Part shown: one piece after another, positions 879 through 56,499 of the stretch
Numbering within the stretch: the first letter of the stretch is position 1
How the letters are laid out: every line of letters begins with the position of its first letter
DNA from: Candidatus Aenigmatarchaeota archaeon
Lineage (GTDB): Archaea > Aenigmatarchaeota > Aenigmatarchaeia > PWEA01 > JACQIF01
DNA: 64,000 bases
Direction: 5' to 3'
Assembly: GCA_016432325.1 (NCBI GenBank)
Contig: CP066684.1
Span: 393,018-457,017, forward strand
Translations under genes and position numbers: made by a program
The notes under the pieces: generated by a model
Seen by the model: only the letters and a program-made list of their open reading frames with translations
What the model was told of the DNA's origin: nothing
Databases searched by the model: none

Positions 879-998
879 ATGTCAGAAGAAGGCAATTCCA
901 CAGCGGAAGATTTTCGAACATCCTCGAGTGTTCGAAATACTTCGAACCGCCGGTTCGAAGAGCACTGTAGTTTCATTCTAGAGCTCGGCATTTATTAA
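879..998 (+). CDS. Small ORF (39 aa) carrying two perfect hairpins, upstream of pdaD
   Basis: The ATG at 879 follows GGAG with about 11 nt spacing. The frame runs to TAA at 996-998, and pdaD starts 12 nt later behind its own GGTG site. The product begins MSEEGNSTAEDF and resembles no family I know. Its middle is encoded by two back-to-back inverted repeats (912-937 and 940-960). Translation is therefore uncertain: it may be a real small protein, a leader peptide, or an untranslated structured leader that happens to be open. No codon-bias argument is possible at this length. Confidence 0.35.
   Translation: MSEEGNSTAEDFRTSSSVRNTSNRRFEEHCSFILELGIY
912..960 (+). repeat. Two tandem hairpins
   Basis: Hairpin 1 has 9-nt arms TTTCGAACA/TGTTCGAAA around an 8-nt loop (912-937). 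Hairpin 2 has 9-nt arms CTTCGAACC/GGTTCGAAG around the loop GCC (940-960). Only two bases separate them, and both contain TTCGAA. They lie 50 nt upstream of the pdaD start codon. Confidence 0.85.
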
Positions 999-1604: not shown

Positions 1605-1882
1605 TACCAGTCGACTTCGGGGCCTTTAACGTGTCTCTCCTGTTCGTGGGGCTGACAAGCCTTCTGGAGCTGGACCAGACTGACGTGATGCATGGCCATA
1701 GCATAGGAGAACGCATCTATCTGTTTTAGCATCTCGGCAACCCGATATCCCAGATCTTCCATTTCCCCACTGGACACCGATGCGCGAGGACCATAGATAA
1801 ACATGACTACGTCGCTAGCCGTAGTGCCTGTTTTGAGATTTTCGAAACCACAGTTTCGAATACTCAGAATCGGCGCATTCAT
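1601..1882 (-). CDS. Conserved-looking small protein downstream of L15e, unknown function
   Basis: 93 aa whose ATG overlaps the L15e stop codon as ATGA, so translation is probably coupled. The body after about residue 25 ([10 protein letters not shown]...) looks like a compact alpha/beta domain, ending [10 protein letters not shown]. The first 20 residues are encoded by a hairpin (1841-1860) and by one arm of a larger inverted repeat shared with the L15e 3' end (1863-1901). They may therefore be a late addition; the Met before FIYGP could be the ancestral start. I do not recognise the family. Its position between L15e and rpp30 suggests a role in translation or RNA processing, but that is inference only. 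Confidence 0.6.
1841..1860 (-). repeat. Hairpin in the 5' coding region of the 1601-1882 gene
   Basis: Arms TTCGAAAC/GTTTCGAA (8 bp) around the loop CACA. It is translated within residues 8-14 of the gene. Confidence 0.8.
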
Positions 1883-1901
1883 CCATAGTGCCGATTCTGA
1901 G
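1863..1901 (-). repeat. Inverted repeat spanning the L15e stop and the next start codon
   Basis: 12-nt arms CTCAGAATCGGC and GCCGATTCTGAG are separated by 15 nt that contain the ATGA overlap. One arm encodes the last residues of L15e and the other encodes residues 3-7 of the following gene. Confidence 0.8.
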
Positions 1902-28850: not shown

Positions 28851-28940
28851 ATGAATTTACCGCTCAGAAGGCCAAGAGGCGCACGAAAAGATTCGCTTTT
28901 CGGCGCACCGAAAACCGACGTTTTCGGAGGTGACCAGTAA
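28851..28940 (+). CDS. 29-codon upstream ORF containing two hairpins
   Basis: ATG 28851 to TAA 28938-28940, directly abutting the next pilin-like ATG (28941). The product would be very basic (MNLPLRRPRGARKDSLFGA...). The only clear ribosome-binding site for the next gene, GGAGGTGA, lies within the last codons of this ORF, and the two hairpins occupy its second half. It could couple translation or modulate access to that site. Translation is not proven. Confidence 0.35.
   Translation: MNLPLRRPRGARKDSLFGAPKTDVFGGDQ
28884..28927 (+). repeat. Two tandem hairpins upstream of the 28941 pilin-like gene
   Basis: Arms CGAAAAG/CTTTTCG with loop ATTCG (28884-28902), then CCGAAAAC/GTTTTCGG with loop CGAC (28908-28927). 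Each is preceded by GGCGCA. Confidence 0.85.
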
Positions 28941-29336
28941 ATGTACGGGAAAGGACTGACTTACACGCTCGAAGCAGTCATAGCGCTCTCGCTCGTCGCG
29001 GTTTCCATGATAGCGGTCTTCAACGGACTGACCGTTCCGCAGGGAGCCCAGTTGCGTTTCGGTGAAGAGAACGCCTTCTCGTGCCTTAAGAGCCTGGACA
29101 GCGACGGCAAGCTGCGGGCCGACGCGGTGGCGCGCAACGCAGGGGCGATATCCAACAACCTGATAGGGTGCATTCGCGGCTCGTTCAATCATACTGTGCA
29201 GGTCTGCCAGGGCACGTGCACAAGCGTGACTCTTGACAGGGACGAGGACGTCGCATCAGTGGAGTATTACATCGCCGGGCACAACACGACAAACCCGACG
29301 CTTGTGGTGGTATACGCATGGTCTTCCCTAACGTGA
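28941..29336 (+). CDS. Pilin-like protein
   Basis: 131 aa. Short N-region MYGKG, then LTYTLEAVIALSLVAVSMIAVF, with a Glu at the position expected for a pilin (LTYTLE) and cleavage expected after KG. The ectodomain has four cysteines (SCLKSL, IGCIRG, VCQGTC) that could form disulfides. It has an 8-nt GGAGGTGA ribosome-binding site. Overlaps the next gene by 19 nt. Role: structural or minor pilin of locus 1. Confidence 0.75.
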   Translation: MYGKGLTYTLEAVIALSLVAVSMIAVFNGLTVPQGAQLRFGEENAFSCLKSLDSDGKLRADAVARNAGAISNNLIGCIRGSFNHTVQVCQGTCTSVTLDRDEDVASVEYYIAGHNTTNPTLVVVYAWSSLT

Positions 29337-30623: not shown

Positions 30624-31097
30624 ATGCGGCCCCAGAAGGGAATATCCCCGATTATAGCCGTGGTTCTGCTCATCGGCCTCACTGTGGCCTCCGCGGCCGT
30701 GCTGGTCAATTTCTACGCGCCCTTCCAGCAGGCCCGGCAGTCGGAGATAGAGCAGAAGGGTTCAACAGAAGCGGAATGCGCGTTCGCCTCCATAGAGTTC
30801 ACGGACGACGACGTCGCGTCCAACCTCACGGCAAGCACGGACACCGTAAACGTCACCGTCGACAACACTGGAAGCGTGGACCTATACGACTTCCAGATAA
30901 CGGTAACGATAAGCAATATAGCCTACAGTTACGAACCCGACAACGTGACCAAGAGGACGGCCGCTGTGCCCATGAAACCGGGGGACAAGGTTGTGTTCGT
31001 GACTAACGTAACGGACAACCTGTCCGGAACGATAACGTCCGTGGAGGTCGTTGGCCGCAACTGCCCCAGAGCGGCGAGAAAGAAGGTTGACTTATGA
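30624..31097 (+). CDS. Archaeal pilin (GISPIIAVVLL type)
   Basis: 157 aa from the leaderless ATG 30624. N-terminus MRPQKGISPIIAVVLLIGLTVASAAV, cleavage after KG. The ectodomain has an Ig-like appearance (VNVTVDNTGSVDLYDFQITVT) and two cysteines (ECAFASIE, RNCPRA). Its stop overlaps the next pilin start as ATGA. First gene of a plus-strand pilin series reaching 32390. Confidence 0.85.
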   Translation: MRPQKGISPIIAVVLLIGLTVASAAVLVNFYAPFQQARQSEIEQKGSTEAECAFASIEFTDDDVASNLTASTDTVNVTVDNTGSVDLYDFQITVTISNIAYSYEPDNVTKRTAAVPMKPGDKVVFVTNVTDNLSGTITSVEVVGRNCPRAARKKVDL

Positions 31098-31651
31098 GCA
31101 TGTACGAAATATGCGATTTCGACATTTTCAAATGTCGTTTGAAAAGTTCGTACGGCGGGCGTACGAACATACCGAAAGGCCGCGGCCTTTCGTGCAAAGG
31201 AGTGAGCCCGCTGATCGCGACCGTACTGCTGATAGCGTTCGCCATAGCCGCGGCCGGCATACTCGCCAACTTCGTCCTGCCGTTCACGCAGTCCACTGTG
31301 TCAGAAAGCACTTCGCGGGGCAGCAGCGACATCAGCTGTTCGTACGCCAACATCATCATAGACGAGGCCTCATGGAACTCCACTTCGAACACGCTCTCTC
31401 TTACAATCGAAAACAACGGCCGTGAAACCCTGAAGAACTTCAAAGCCTCCATCGTCAGAACGAACAACACCGTATCGACCCTGATACTCGCGCCGACAGG
31501 CGCGGAGATGCAGCCCGGAGACATAGAGACGTTCACAAACGCGACAAACGTGGCGCCCTGCAGCGACATCAGCTCGGTCACGGTGCGTTCGGACACGTGC
31601 CCGACAGACGCCCGCCACGAAATACAGAAGGCATCCATAACAAGCTGTTAG
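31094..31651 (+). CDS. Archaeal pilin with hairpin-encoded N-terminal extension
   Basis: 185 aa. The pilin signal CKGVSPLIATVLLIAFAIAAAGI begins only at about residue 35, whereas sister pilins have 4-6 residues before KG. The extra stretch is encoded by four hairpins placed head to tail (31105-31192). A second, imperfect KG-LS motif (PKGRGLS) is encoded by the last hairpin. The mature part is pilin-like with an Ig-like domain (SLTIENNGRETLKNFKA) and cysteine pairs. Overlaps the upstream gene as ATGA. If the ATG is used, the prepilin leader would be exceptionally long; no internal ATG or GTG just before KG gives a normal leader. Confidence 0.8.
   Translation: MSMYEICDFDIFKCRLKSSYGGRTNIPKGRGLSCKGVSPLIATVLLIAFAIAAAGILANFVLPFTQSTVSESTSRGSSDISCSYANIIIDEASWNSTSNTLSLTIENNGRETLKNFKASIVRTNNTVSTLILAPTGAEMQPGDIETFTNATNVAPCSDISSVTVRSDTCPTDARHEIQKASITSC
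31105..31192 (+). repeat. Four-hairpin array inside a pilin reading frame
   Basis: H1 CGAAAT/ATTTCG, loop ATGCG (31105-31121). H2 CGACATTT/AAATGTCG (31120-31137). H3 GTTCGTACG/CGTACGAAC, loop GCGGG (31146-31168). H4 CGAAAGGC/GCCTTTCG, loop CGCG (31173-31192). Confidence 0.9.
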
Positions 31652-47605: not shown

Positions 47606-48232
47606 TCATGGCCTCCACAGCGTCACGCGCAGAGTGCAGTTGCGCGAATTCTCCGTCATCACGTAGCGGTCTATTGAAATCTGTTCCTTGGCGCCCGCCG
47701 GCTGGGCGCCTACTGTCAGGTTCGTGGACTGGACCGTGCAGTTGGAGCCGCCGCTTGTCAGCAGCTGCACGTAAAGGCTGTTTGGTCCTGTCGAGAGGTT
47801 GCCGCGCAGGTCTTTGGCCGTCATCCGCGTCAGCGCGATGAGCTTGTCATCCGCAAGGCGATGGTCTCCGTATGCCAATCCCACGCTCTTGATATTCGTC
47901 GAGTTGTACCAGCCGTCGGGCTCTCCTGACGTAAGAACGAGCTGGTCGCTAAGCCCGATGAGCCTGTCCTGCGTTCTCCTGAACTCCTCGGAGTCTGCCA
48001 CGGAATGGGATATGGAAGACTCCGCGTGCAGGACGCCCGCTATCGATATCGTGAATATGACAAGCGCCAACACGACGTCCAGAGAGACGGCCTGTCCCTT
48101 TCCCGACAGAAGGAGGGAAAACTGAAACCGCGTTTCAGATTTTCCTGCCCCAAGGGCGGGAAAATCGTTCGCACGCGGCGAGGCCGCGGCCCCGCCGTCT
48201 TCAGCACGTCTGCACATTCGTACCGTCCGCAT
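47606..48232 (-). CDS. Pilin-like protein with hairpin-encoded N-terminal extension, locus 2
   Basis: 208 aa. The class III-like site GKGQAVSLDVVLALVIFTISIAGVL occurs only at about residue 44. The preceding residues, from MRTVRMCRRAEDGG to FQFSLLLS, are encoded by four consecutive hairpins (48099-48197). The start overlaps the end of the 48201 gene by 32 nt; a second ATG five codons later is equally possible. The ectodomain has a helix, then a beta domain with two Cys (SNCTVQ, RNCTLRV). An Asp at +6 of the mature protein replaces the usual Glu. Confidence 0.75.
   Translation of the reverse strand: MRTVRMCRRAEDGGAAASPRANDFPALGAGKSETRFQFSLLLSGKGQAVSLDVVLALVIFTISIAGVLHAESSISHSVADSEEFRRTQDRLIGLSDQLVLTSGEPDGWYNSTNIKSVGLAYGDHRLADDKLIALTRMTAKDLRGNLSTGPNSLYVQLLTSGGSNCTVQSTNLTVGAQPAGAKEQISIDRYVMTENSRNCTLRVTLWRP
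48099..48197 (-). repeat. Four-hairpin array inside a pilin-like reading frame
   Basis: TTTCCC/GGGAAA, 10-nt loop (48099-48120). CTGAAAC/GTTTCAG, 3-nt loop (48122-48138). ATTTTCC-T-GCCC paired with GGGC-G-GGAAAAT, loop CAA (48139-48165). CGGCG-A-GGCC paired with GGCC-C-CGCCG (48176-48197). Confidence 0.85.
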
Positions 48233-48779
48233 TCCAGCACTTCACCTCTATATTGTCACCCGTGTTGTTGACGTTCACGAGCGCCGTTCTCAGATCCGCG
48301 TCCTTTACCTTCGCCGTTATCAGTCTCGCCGATATTATAAGGGTCTCGTTCCTCGGCCCCGGCCACGTCATCTCCACCTTGCGATATTTGCCGAGAACCT
48401 TGAACGTGGTCGCGTTCTGCACTCCCGCCCGGGCGGCTACCGTGATGTTCGTCTGGAAGCCCTTGCCGCCTATGGCCGCGGCGTCGATGGCGCCGGACAC
48501 CTTCTCCACCTCGCGCTGCGCCGCAAACTGCTGGCGCGCCTTTTCGACGTTCAGGTTGCGTTCGTTGAGGGAAAATAATATGATTGAAGCGAGAACAAGG
48601 ACGATGCCTGCCACGACCATGAACTCGATCCCTGTTTGCGCCTTTCCCGTGCACGAGAAGCTTCGCTTCTCGGCATGTTCGGCCTTCGGGCCGAACTTTT
48701 CGGACCGAGTCCGAAAATGTCGGGACCTGTGGGTCCCGTACACCCGCAGGAGGGAAACCGTTTTCACATTCAATACCAT
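48201..48779 (-). CDS. Pilin-like protein with hairpin-encoded N-terminal extension, locus 2
   Basis: 192 aa from ATG 48779, 4 nt after the preceding stop. The class III motif KAQTGIEFMVVAGIVLVLASIILF has Glu at +5 and cleavage expected after KA at about residue 44. The 43-residue leader is largely encoded by four perfect hairpins (48654-48738). The mature domain (NVEKARQQFAAQREVEKVSGAI helix, then beta strands) is typical of the QAxIEY-type archaeal pilins. C-terminus CWNADGTNVQTC with two Cys. Confidence 0.8.
   Translation of the reverse strand: MVLNVKTVSLLRVYGTHRSRHFRTRSEKFGPKAEHAEKRSFSCTGKAQTGIEFMVVAGIVLVLASIILFSLNERNLNVEKARQQFAAQREVEKVSGAIDAAAIGGKGFQTNITVAARAGVQNATTFKVLGKYRKVEMTWPGPRNETLIISARLITAKVKDADLRTALVNVNNTGDNIEVKCWNADGTNVQTC
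48654..48738 (-). repeat. Four-hairpin array, nearly contiguous
   Basis: CGAGAAG/CTTCTCG, loop CTTCG (48654-48672). GTTCGGCC/GGCCGAAC, loop TTCG (48677-48696). TTTTCGGAC/GTCCGAAAA, loop CGA (48697-48717). CGGGACC/GGTCCCG, loop TGTG (48721-48738). Gaps between them are 4, 0 and 3 nt. Confidence 0.92.
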
Positions 48780-55771: not shown

Positions 55772-55836
55772 TGAAACAGCGGTTTTAGAGTTCTTACGAA
55801 CAGCGGTTCGTAAGTTTGCGAATGCACGTTCGCAAA
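55772..55836 (+). repeat. Three-hairpin array in the leader of the 55879 gene
   Basis: TGAAAC/GTTTTA, loop AGCG (55772-55787, one G-T pair). CTTACGAAC/GTTCGTAAG, loop AGCG (55793-55814). TTTGCGAA/TTCGCAAA, loop TGCACG (55815-55836). The AGCG loop is shared with the hairpin at 20087-20102. Confidence 0.9.
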
Positions 55837-55878
55837 TACCTCGTCCGCTCGTTAACTAGTAAGGACACGGTGATCACG

Positions 55879-56499
55879 ATGGTATTGGGGTCTCAGAGTC
55901 TCGAACCGGAGAGTCGCTTCAGGCTGGCCCTGAAAAGGCTCATTGGGGCCACGACAGAAGAGGAGACCAAAGAGGCCATCATGGACCTCGAGGAGTCGCT
56001 GCGGCTGATTCTGGAGAAACGGGACCGCGAGTGGAGCGCTCTTCTGCAGGAGAAGGGCGCCGGGGCGCCGTCGTACCCGCAAGACATGAAAGGGTTCGCT
56101 GCCGAGCTGGCCCGCGAGGCGGCGGCCGCCGTCGAGGCCAAGATAGACTCCAAGATATCTCAGATACGACTGCCTGCGACTGAGGGACCTCCGCAGATAA
56201 TCCCCTCTTCTTCAGAAAGCGGTCAAAGACTTGACACGATCGAAGAAAAGATAGAACACTTGCGCGAAATCGTCAAGGGCGAACTGCAACCAGAAACCAA
56301 GGAGACGCTGAAGAAAGAGATCCGCACAAGCATCGAGGGCCACATGTCCGCGGACGACGAGCTCGCACGCATGATAGCGGAACTTGTCCAAGAGCTGCGC
56401 GGCCAACTGCTCGCCGAGCTGAAGACCGAGCTTACCGAAGAGGTCAAGGCCGCAATAAAGGACGAGATAAAAAACGAGTTGCGAAAGGAACTTCTGTGA
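55879..56499 (+). CDS. Coiled-coil protein
   Basis: 206 aa from ATG 55879, which has GGTGATCACG upstream. N-terminus MVLGSQSLEPESRFRLALKRLIGATTEEETKEAIMDLE, then long helical, Glu/Lys/Leu-rich stretches with heptads: EEKIEHLREIVKGEL, LKKEIRTSIEG, LVQELRGQLLAELKTELTEEVKAAIKDEIKNELRKELL. No membrane segment or enzyme motif. Probably a structural or adaptor protein. A three-hairpin array occupies its leader. Faces dph6 convergently. Confidence 0.68.
   Translation: MVLGSQSLEPESRFRLALKRLIGATTEEETKEAIMDLEESLRLILEKRDREWSALLQEKGAGAPSYPQDMKGFAAELAREAAAAVEAKIDSKISQIRLPATEGPPQIIPSSSESGQRLDTIEEKIEHLREIVKGELQPETKETLKKEIRTSIEGHMSADDELARMIAELVQELRGQLLAELKTELTEEVKAAIKDEIKNELRKELL

Follow-up and report, generated by a model that had tools for sequence, protein, structure and literature searches.

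Between the ATG of an archaeal type IV pilin-like gene and its class III signal, KG-VSPLIATVLL, lies an extension encoded by four near-contiguous hairpins (31105-31192), which raises the question of whether this array belongs to the pilin or came from elsewhere. We analyzed a stretch of 64,000 nucleotides (the window), part of a single 874,769-bp contig of the source genome (G000), together with one comparison genome within the family, G001, which belongs to the same genus. The gene and the parts of its array are listed here, with scores from the covariance model R2 described below.

31094-31651, plus strand: type IV pilin-like gene, with the class III signal KG/VSPLIATVLL after a 34-residue extension
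31103-31192, plus strand: 90-nt composite insertion of 30 codons, in which one 45-nt double-hairpin module is nested in another; not present in the G001 orthologue
31105-31121, no strand: outer hairpin 1, CGAAAT-5-ATTTCG, outer module, type C
31124-31168, minus strand: inner 45-nt double-hairpin module, type A core (R2 45.0 bits, E=7.1e-8)
31125-31145, no strand: core hairpin TTTTCAAA-5-TTTGAAAA, part of the inner module
31146-31168, no strand: core hairpin GTTCGTACG-5-CGTACGAAC, part of the inner module
31173-31192, no strand: outer hairpin 2, CGAAAGGCCG/CGGCCTTTCG, outer module

The match of the gene to Pilin_N is marginal but above threshold (25.6 bits against the Pfam cut-off of 25.2), and its ATG at 31094 overlaps the stop of the upstream pilin (30624-31097) as ATGA. 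A sequence-only reading of this DNA had described four in-frame hairpins ahead of the class III signal and short leaders in the sister pilins at 30624 and 31659; we confirm both and find the pilin reading frame open across all four hairpins (MSMYEICDFDIFKCRLKSSYGGRTNIPKGRGLSC-KGVSPLIATVLL). The second hairpin has an alternative pairing, CGACATTT/AAATGTCG at 31120-31137, and comparison with the family described below favors 31125-31145 as the probable one. The same reading had proposed folding the 5' region as a check, and the start region is indeed predicted to fold far better than its dinucleotide shuffles (z = -3.6 and -4.3), none of 200 being as good. Phage records held no match to the pilin region. 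Scanned against Rfam, the window, hairpin array included, had no match, and a single tRNA was all that turned up when seven sample stretches were added.

The array had been thought to be added, structure-bearing DNA rather than protein-driven sequence, with alignment of orthologues as the test. We found that G001 retains the pilin at 65% identity and in preserved gene order, while its orthologue has neither the array nor the residues that the array encodes (ATGAAAAGCGTGAAAGGC; MKSV-KGISPLI). The G001 gene starts ATG AAA AGC GTG AAA GGC ATC AGC CCG (M K S V K G I S P), and the G000 gene starts ATG AGC ATG, followed by 90 nt and then TGC AAA GGA GTG AGC CCG, with the edges of the insertion set by this comparison and possibly off by a few bases. 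The added-DNA reading thus holds at this site, and it is also backed by the occurrence of the same structure, with different arms, in unrelated genes.

Arrays of at least two hairpins are common in G000, with 21 observed in 284 kb (the window plus eleven 20-kb stretches spread over the genome, 220 kb) compared to 0.33 in first-order shuffles; 4-kb stretches round model matches were also examined. Most of these arrays hold a unit of ~45 nt made of two adjacent hairpins, which in gene sense reads ATTT..AAA then CTT..AAG, or GTT..AAC in composites. The unit ends are ATTT...AAG or AAC, followed by A, and the length ranges over ~42-51 nt, with only composites reaching ~90 nt. When the pilin array was used in a DNA search of G000, it recovered only its own locus, its palindrome on the opposite strand, and a single match that was short and weak; simple similarity searching therefore does not pick up the family. 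We built a covariance model (R1) from fifteen copies, three of them from the window, and a second model (R2) from the 54 matches of R1 outside the window, some sites being counted on both strands; the R2 alignment contains no window sequence, but the R1 model that gathered its copies used three window members. At E<1e-6, R2 found three window elements besides the inner module of the pilin array. Across the 54-row alignment, 97.3% of cells form standard pairs over fifteen pairs, and 12 of the 15 have changes in both partners, values far beyond those of shuffled or slid alignments, although these statistics describe the family and are not proof of fold selection, since copies were recruited for forming hairpins. 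The arms differ in most copies, so the usual sign of activity, recent identical copies, is seldom seen. The earlier description of the four pilin hairpins as each of unrelated sequence was only half right: their arms share a YTT..TTCG/CGAA..AAR grammar with copies elsewhere. No clear target-site duplication of the sort expected for a MITE was found, with at most a single A common to both ends.

Beyond the pilin array, the window holds the following elements.

48654-48738, minus strand: second composite, laid out as the pilin's, in the N-terminal leader of ORF 48201-48779, which has a class III-signal-like GKAQTGIEFMVVAG
48677-48718: core of the second composite (R2 E=2.4e-7)
28884-28927, no strand: core-less hairpin pair similar to the outer module, 14 nt before the pilin-like ORF 28941-29336
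55793-55837, plus strand: intergenic double-hairpin element of the subfamily with CTTACGAAC/GTTCGTAAG (R2 E=1.4e-9)
910-960, minus strand: double-hairpin element with a TA spacer between its hairpins (R2 E=5.8e-7)
1839-1901, minus strand: weak, possibly degenerate double-hairpin element (R2 E=0.0012)

The composites suggest how a 45-nt unit may become a 90-nt array. The pilin array, 48654-48738, and L018:3689-3767 have one order in common: outer hairpin, linker, core, AT(G/A)(C/T), outer hairpin, where the linker is a short AC(AT) or GC(AT), the core is two hairpins, and the flanks are such as GTGTA/TACAC. When the core is excised from 48677 or from L109:1994, GC or AC remains beside ATGC, and the core-less element L022:9506-9553 has exactly such a GCATGC center. 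Since the excised composites match this core-less element, we read the pilin array as one 45-nt unit split by a second 45-nt unit. A five-hairpin composite was also seen (L103:1958-2062), in which two cores adjoin in opposite orientation beside an outer hairpin. The element at 55793-55837, which overlaps the predicted 5' end of ORF 55822-56499, belongs to a near-identical intergenic subfamily, ATTTGCGAAC...GTTCGTAAG, with further members at L020:13227-13271, L016:13833-13878, L023:7634-7679, and L104:2026-2071. Its members have flanks in common, followed by AACTTTAAAACG-like sequence resembling a TATA box, and they may be a larger composite that was copied recently, or else an operator linked to a promoter.

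Units of this family also lie inside genes that have nothing to do with pili, and in four of these, described first, alignment with orthologues shows an exact in-frame insertion. In CysRS, a 15-aa insert, ISDNWSETSKARPLK, coincides with the unit directly before KMAKSKGN (the KMSKS motif) and is missing from all aligned orthologues (~22 order and class genomes). L7Ae carries a 16-aa insert near its start (MAEDLSK-insert-KALEA, compared to MVDDLSKKALEA in G001) that is missing from the G001 orthologue and others, and a metallophosphoesterase carries a 15-aa insert that its nearest same-order orthologues are without. The reverse case is L37Ae, where G001 has a unit near the C-terminus and G000 does not. 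Units are also present in the tails of Rpb7-like and ScpA-like proteins, the ScpA C-terminus being too diverged from its sister for the insertion to be placed, and near the start of a DUF1405 protein. The insert peptides in genes are 14-17 residues long and mostly hydrophilic, and protein ends and loops dominate, which is expected if inserts are translated and tolerated in some places only. In the G001 LeuRS on C25 (L090:2734-5010), a double-hairpin unit, MFEPRGSNASNAGRSK, follows the catalytic domain; an empty-site comparison was set aside here, as the G000 match is apparently a different LeuRS type that matches mainly at the C-terminus.

Together, these findings make it probable that a short palindromic mobile element, non-autonomous and translated where tolerated, gave rise to the pilin array as a composite copy. 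The basic unit would be the ~45-nt ATTT-hairpin with its adjacent YTT-hairpin, ending AAG or AAC before A. One such double hairpin would have entered the pilin gene just behind its start, and a second would have entered between the hairpins of the first to give 90 nt, the order of insertions being our reconstruction from the layout. Each unit has a length divisible by three and an open frame, so translation would still run on into the pilin. Class III signals are cleaved by prepilin peptidase, which is the basis for expecting removal of the leader. The extra 30 residues precede this cleavage site and would be removed with it, so the mature pilin should be unchanged.

Alternatively, the palindromes may arise in place, by template-switching or tandem duplication at local quasi-palindromes, without movement between sites. 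Such an origin would account for arms that vary among copies yet pair perfectly, and host sequence is echoed in some inserts (L111:2030-2098 and L019:11296-11340): EDLSK occurs twice in L7Ae, as a repeat across the insert, CysRS has a VSD/ISD repeat, and TTTCCGAC recurs just upstream of the CysRS element. These echoes may hint at local templating of arms. We nevertheless consider an in-place origin unlikely, as it does not predict that dozens of unrelated sites in two species would have a 45-nt layout and fixed ends in common and be gathered by one covariance model. An in-place process may still keep the arms of a mobile element perfect after insertion.

The hairpins could also be a regulatory RNA leader that evolved for pilin expression, either an attenuator or a site of ribosome pausing that tunes pilin stoichiometry in the operon. 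The predicted fold across the pilin start is stable, and the sequence-only reading had noted recurrence at other pilin genes, while offering a regulatory or recombination role only tentatively. That recurrence stands for the composite in the second class III-signal-like leader (48654-48738) and for the hairpin pair upstream of another pilin-like ORF (28884-28927), but the family recurs genome-wide and has no link to pilins. CysRS, L7Ae, a metallophosphoesterase, LeuRS, and L37Ae all carry such units, often distant from the start codon, and the sister pilin operon is without the array, and tolerance predicts placement in cleaved leaders equally well. Since the pilin array is one copy of a dispersed family, a pilin-specific regulatory role is disfavored and in our view quite improbable as its origin, although a mobile element at this site could possibly have been co-opted for regulation later.

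ATTT comes first in sense in 12 of 13 in-gene calls. The thirteenth (L083) lies in an ORF of 41 aa with a low score, which we discounted as spurious once the result had been seen, so that all 12 accepted copies share one orientation (P=0.0005). Intergenic copies between co-directional genes (n=18) are split 10:8. Stop codons are ruled out as the source of this bias, both orientations being about equally open; a purine-rich site preference (AAG/A) or selection for the more hydrophilic reading is possible. Length is divisible by three for 11 of 12 in-gene copies, compared to 21 of 37 others, a modest difference (Fisher P=0.037) in which the in-gene class is partly circular because gene calls need an open frame. 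Since gene calling favors open frames, the cases based on orthologues carry the argument. Frame 0 is used by eight of the 12 in-gene copies, whose peptides have a loose I.....KTSN...SK pattern in common, and the other four are read in other frames.

These constraints bear on a further alternative, that RNA splicing or ribosomal bypass takes the units out ahead of translation or in its course, so that they never appear in proteins. Yeast mitochondria have hairpin inserts that ribosomes bypass, and one copy here adjoins the catalytic KMSKS of CysRS, where harm might be expected. On the other hand, lengths in multiples of three, open frames, and a placement mostly at protein ends would be needless if units were removed, no bulge-helix-bulge layout was evident on inspection by eye, and the double hairpins of fungal mitochondria are retained in transcripts (PMC2800124), so we regard removal as very unlikely. 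A last possibility, that codon choice in a genuine protein extension produced the inverted repeats incidentally or that they are due to chance, agrees with the frame being open throughout but has practically no standing, being refuted by the sister orthologue, which is without the residues, and by copies of the structure in intergenic, non-coding DNA, and facing both the excess of arrays (21 compared to 0.33 expected) and a fold z of about -4.

To place the family in its phylum, we searched 156 genomes with R2 at E<=1e-4, counting both strands. G000 has 34 matches and G001 has 27 (~29 and ~22 distinct sites), seven same-order genomes in a few genera have 1-3 weak matches each, and the other 147 of the 156 have no R2 match at this threshold. 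Among the same-order matches that we inspected are real double hairpins that have the CTT/TTT junction too. When adjacent hairpin pairs were counted without bias in sampled relatives, the numbers were zero or near zero, except in G000. The family is thus expanded in the genus of G000 and G001, with rare relatives in the order, and the two species differ in site presence at the pilin, L7Ae, and L37Ae. In a genome of the same class but another family (G016), we observed three adjacent hairpin pairs in 25.5 kb, at L241:1390-1436, L241:12510-12556, and L242:7744-7788, which are of a different sequence type (ACGAAAATC/GATTTTCGT with TAGGAAAC/GTTTCCTA) and are possibly an independent double-hairpin family.

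The copies would have spread by transposition, and their movement may use a folded single strand. A Y1/RAYT transposase (PF01797), the only transposase type sought, was not found in G000 or G001, both incomplete genomes, and we set it aside as the mover on that basis. A bolder proposal, which we hold to be doubtful, is that a folded single strand, either RNA or ssDNA, is the form in which the elements spread, with a heredity of structure rather than sequence. The arms would then be rewritten in step while the two-hairpin fold, the multiple-of-three length, and the sense orientation in genes were kept, giving a minimal coding-compatible mobile element without an enzyme of its own.

So far, in-frame coding palindromes have been viewed as something peculiar to Rickettsia, the literature citing a single archaeal report. 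A unit of only ~45 nt that enters essential archaeal genes beside catalytic motifs, in one orientation, supplies a clean natural collection of linker insertions 15 residues long, and its differing sites in two congeneric species make movement, translation, and tolerance testable. There is a caution here too: an N-terminal extension or an indel in one of these archaeal proteins may come from an element rather than serve a function.

Judged by analogy, the closest functional parallel is the Rickettsia palindromic elements (RPE; Wolbachia has WPE). RPEs are 100-150 bp long and lie in frame in conserved genes (PMC10969869, PMC3767692, PMC2229807), as solvent-exposed inserts (PMC3767692) that encode conserved peptides (PMC10969869). 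Both systems consist of dispersed palindromes in a small genome, in frame in unrelated conserved genes that include some tRNA synthetases and that are left unbroken; the archaeal inserts are likewise in frame in CysRS, L7Ae, metallophosphoesterase, L37Ae, and the pilin. The peptide that recurs in RPEs may have a loose counterpart in the pattern common to eight of the 12 archaeal in-gene copies. Compared by description rather than sequence, the unit found here differs from the 100-150-bp elements of Rickettsiales in having an archaeal host, being ~45 nt long, consisting of two adjacent hairpins, and nesting, and in arms that change from copy to copy without losing their pairing. The coding palindromes of M. 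jannaschii genes (Suyama 2005, as cited in PMC2229807) are, as far as that citation describes them, likewise archaeal, palindromic, and fused into protein genes, but in a different lineage.

In form, the unit resembles the double-hairpin elements of Allomyces mtDNA, which have no flanking duplications and are retained in transcripts (PMC2800124). Both have a unit of two adjacent hairpins that occurs in genes, an insertion load that differs among related species, and no clear flanking duplications, but the Allomyces elements are mitochondrial, with no recurrent in-frame coding unit reported (PMC2800124), whereas the host here is an archaeal genome with archaeal ribosomal proteins and pilins, not organelle DNA, and the units lie in its cellular genes. 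The GC clusters of yeast mitochondria, such as GC42, are ~42-nt mobile palindromes that merge and have AG target nucleotides (PMC4478555), and they share with the archaeal unit a short palindromic mobile form under structural constraint and the merging of copies. The GC clusters are mitochondrial and their stems mostly conserved in sequence, whereas the archaeal arms diverge between copies. REP/BIME with RAYT are also short chromosomal palindromes that occur in pairs, but they are mainly extragenic and carry a GTAG or CGTC tag (PMC3733652), while the archaeal units have no such foot tag, ending instead ATTT...AAG/AAC then A, and have no Y1/RAYT counterpart in the two incomplete genomes searched. 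Altogether, on the open-access literature we judge the kind of element to be known and the variant seen here to be new: a small double hairpin whose arms vary, which nests, and which keeps to one sense orientation in genes.
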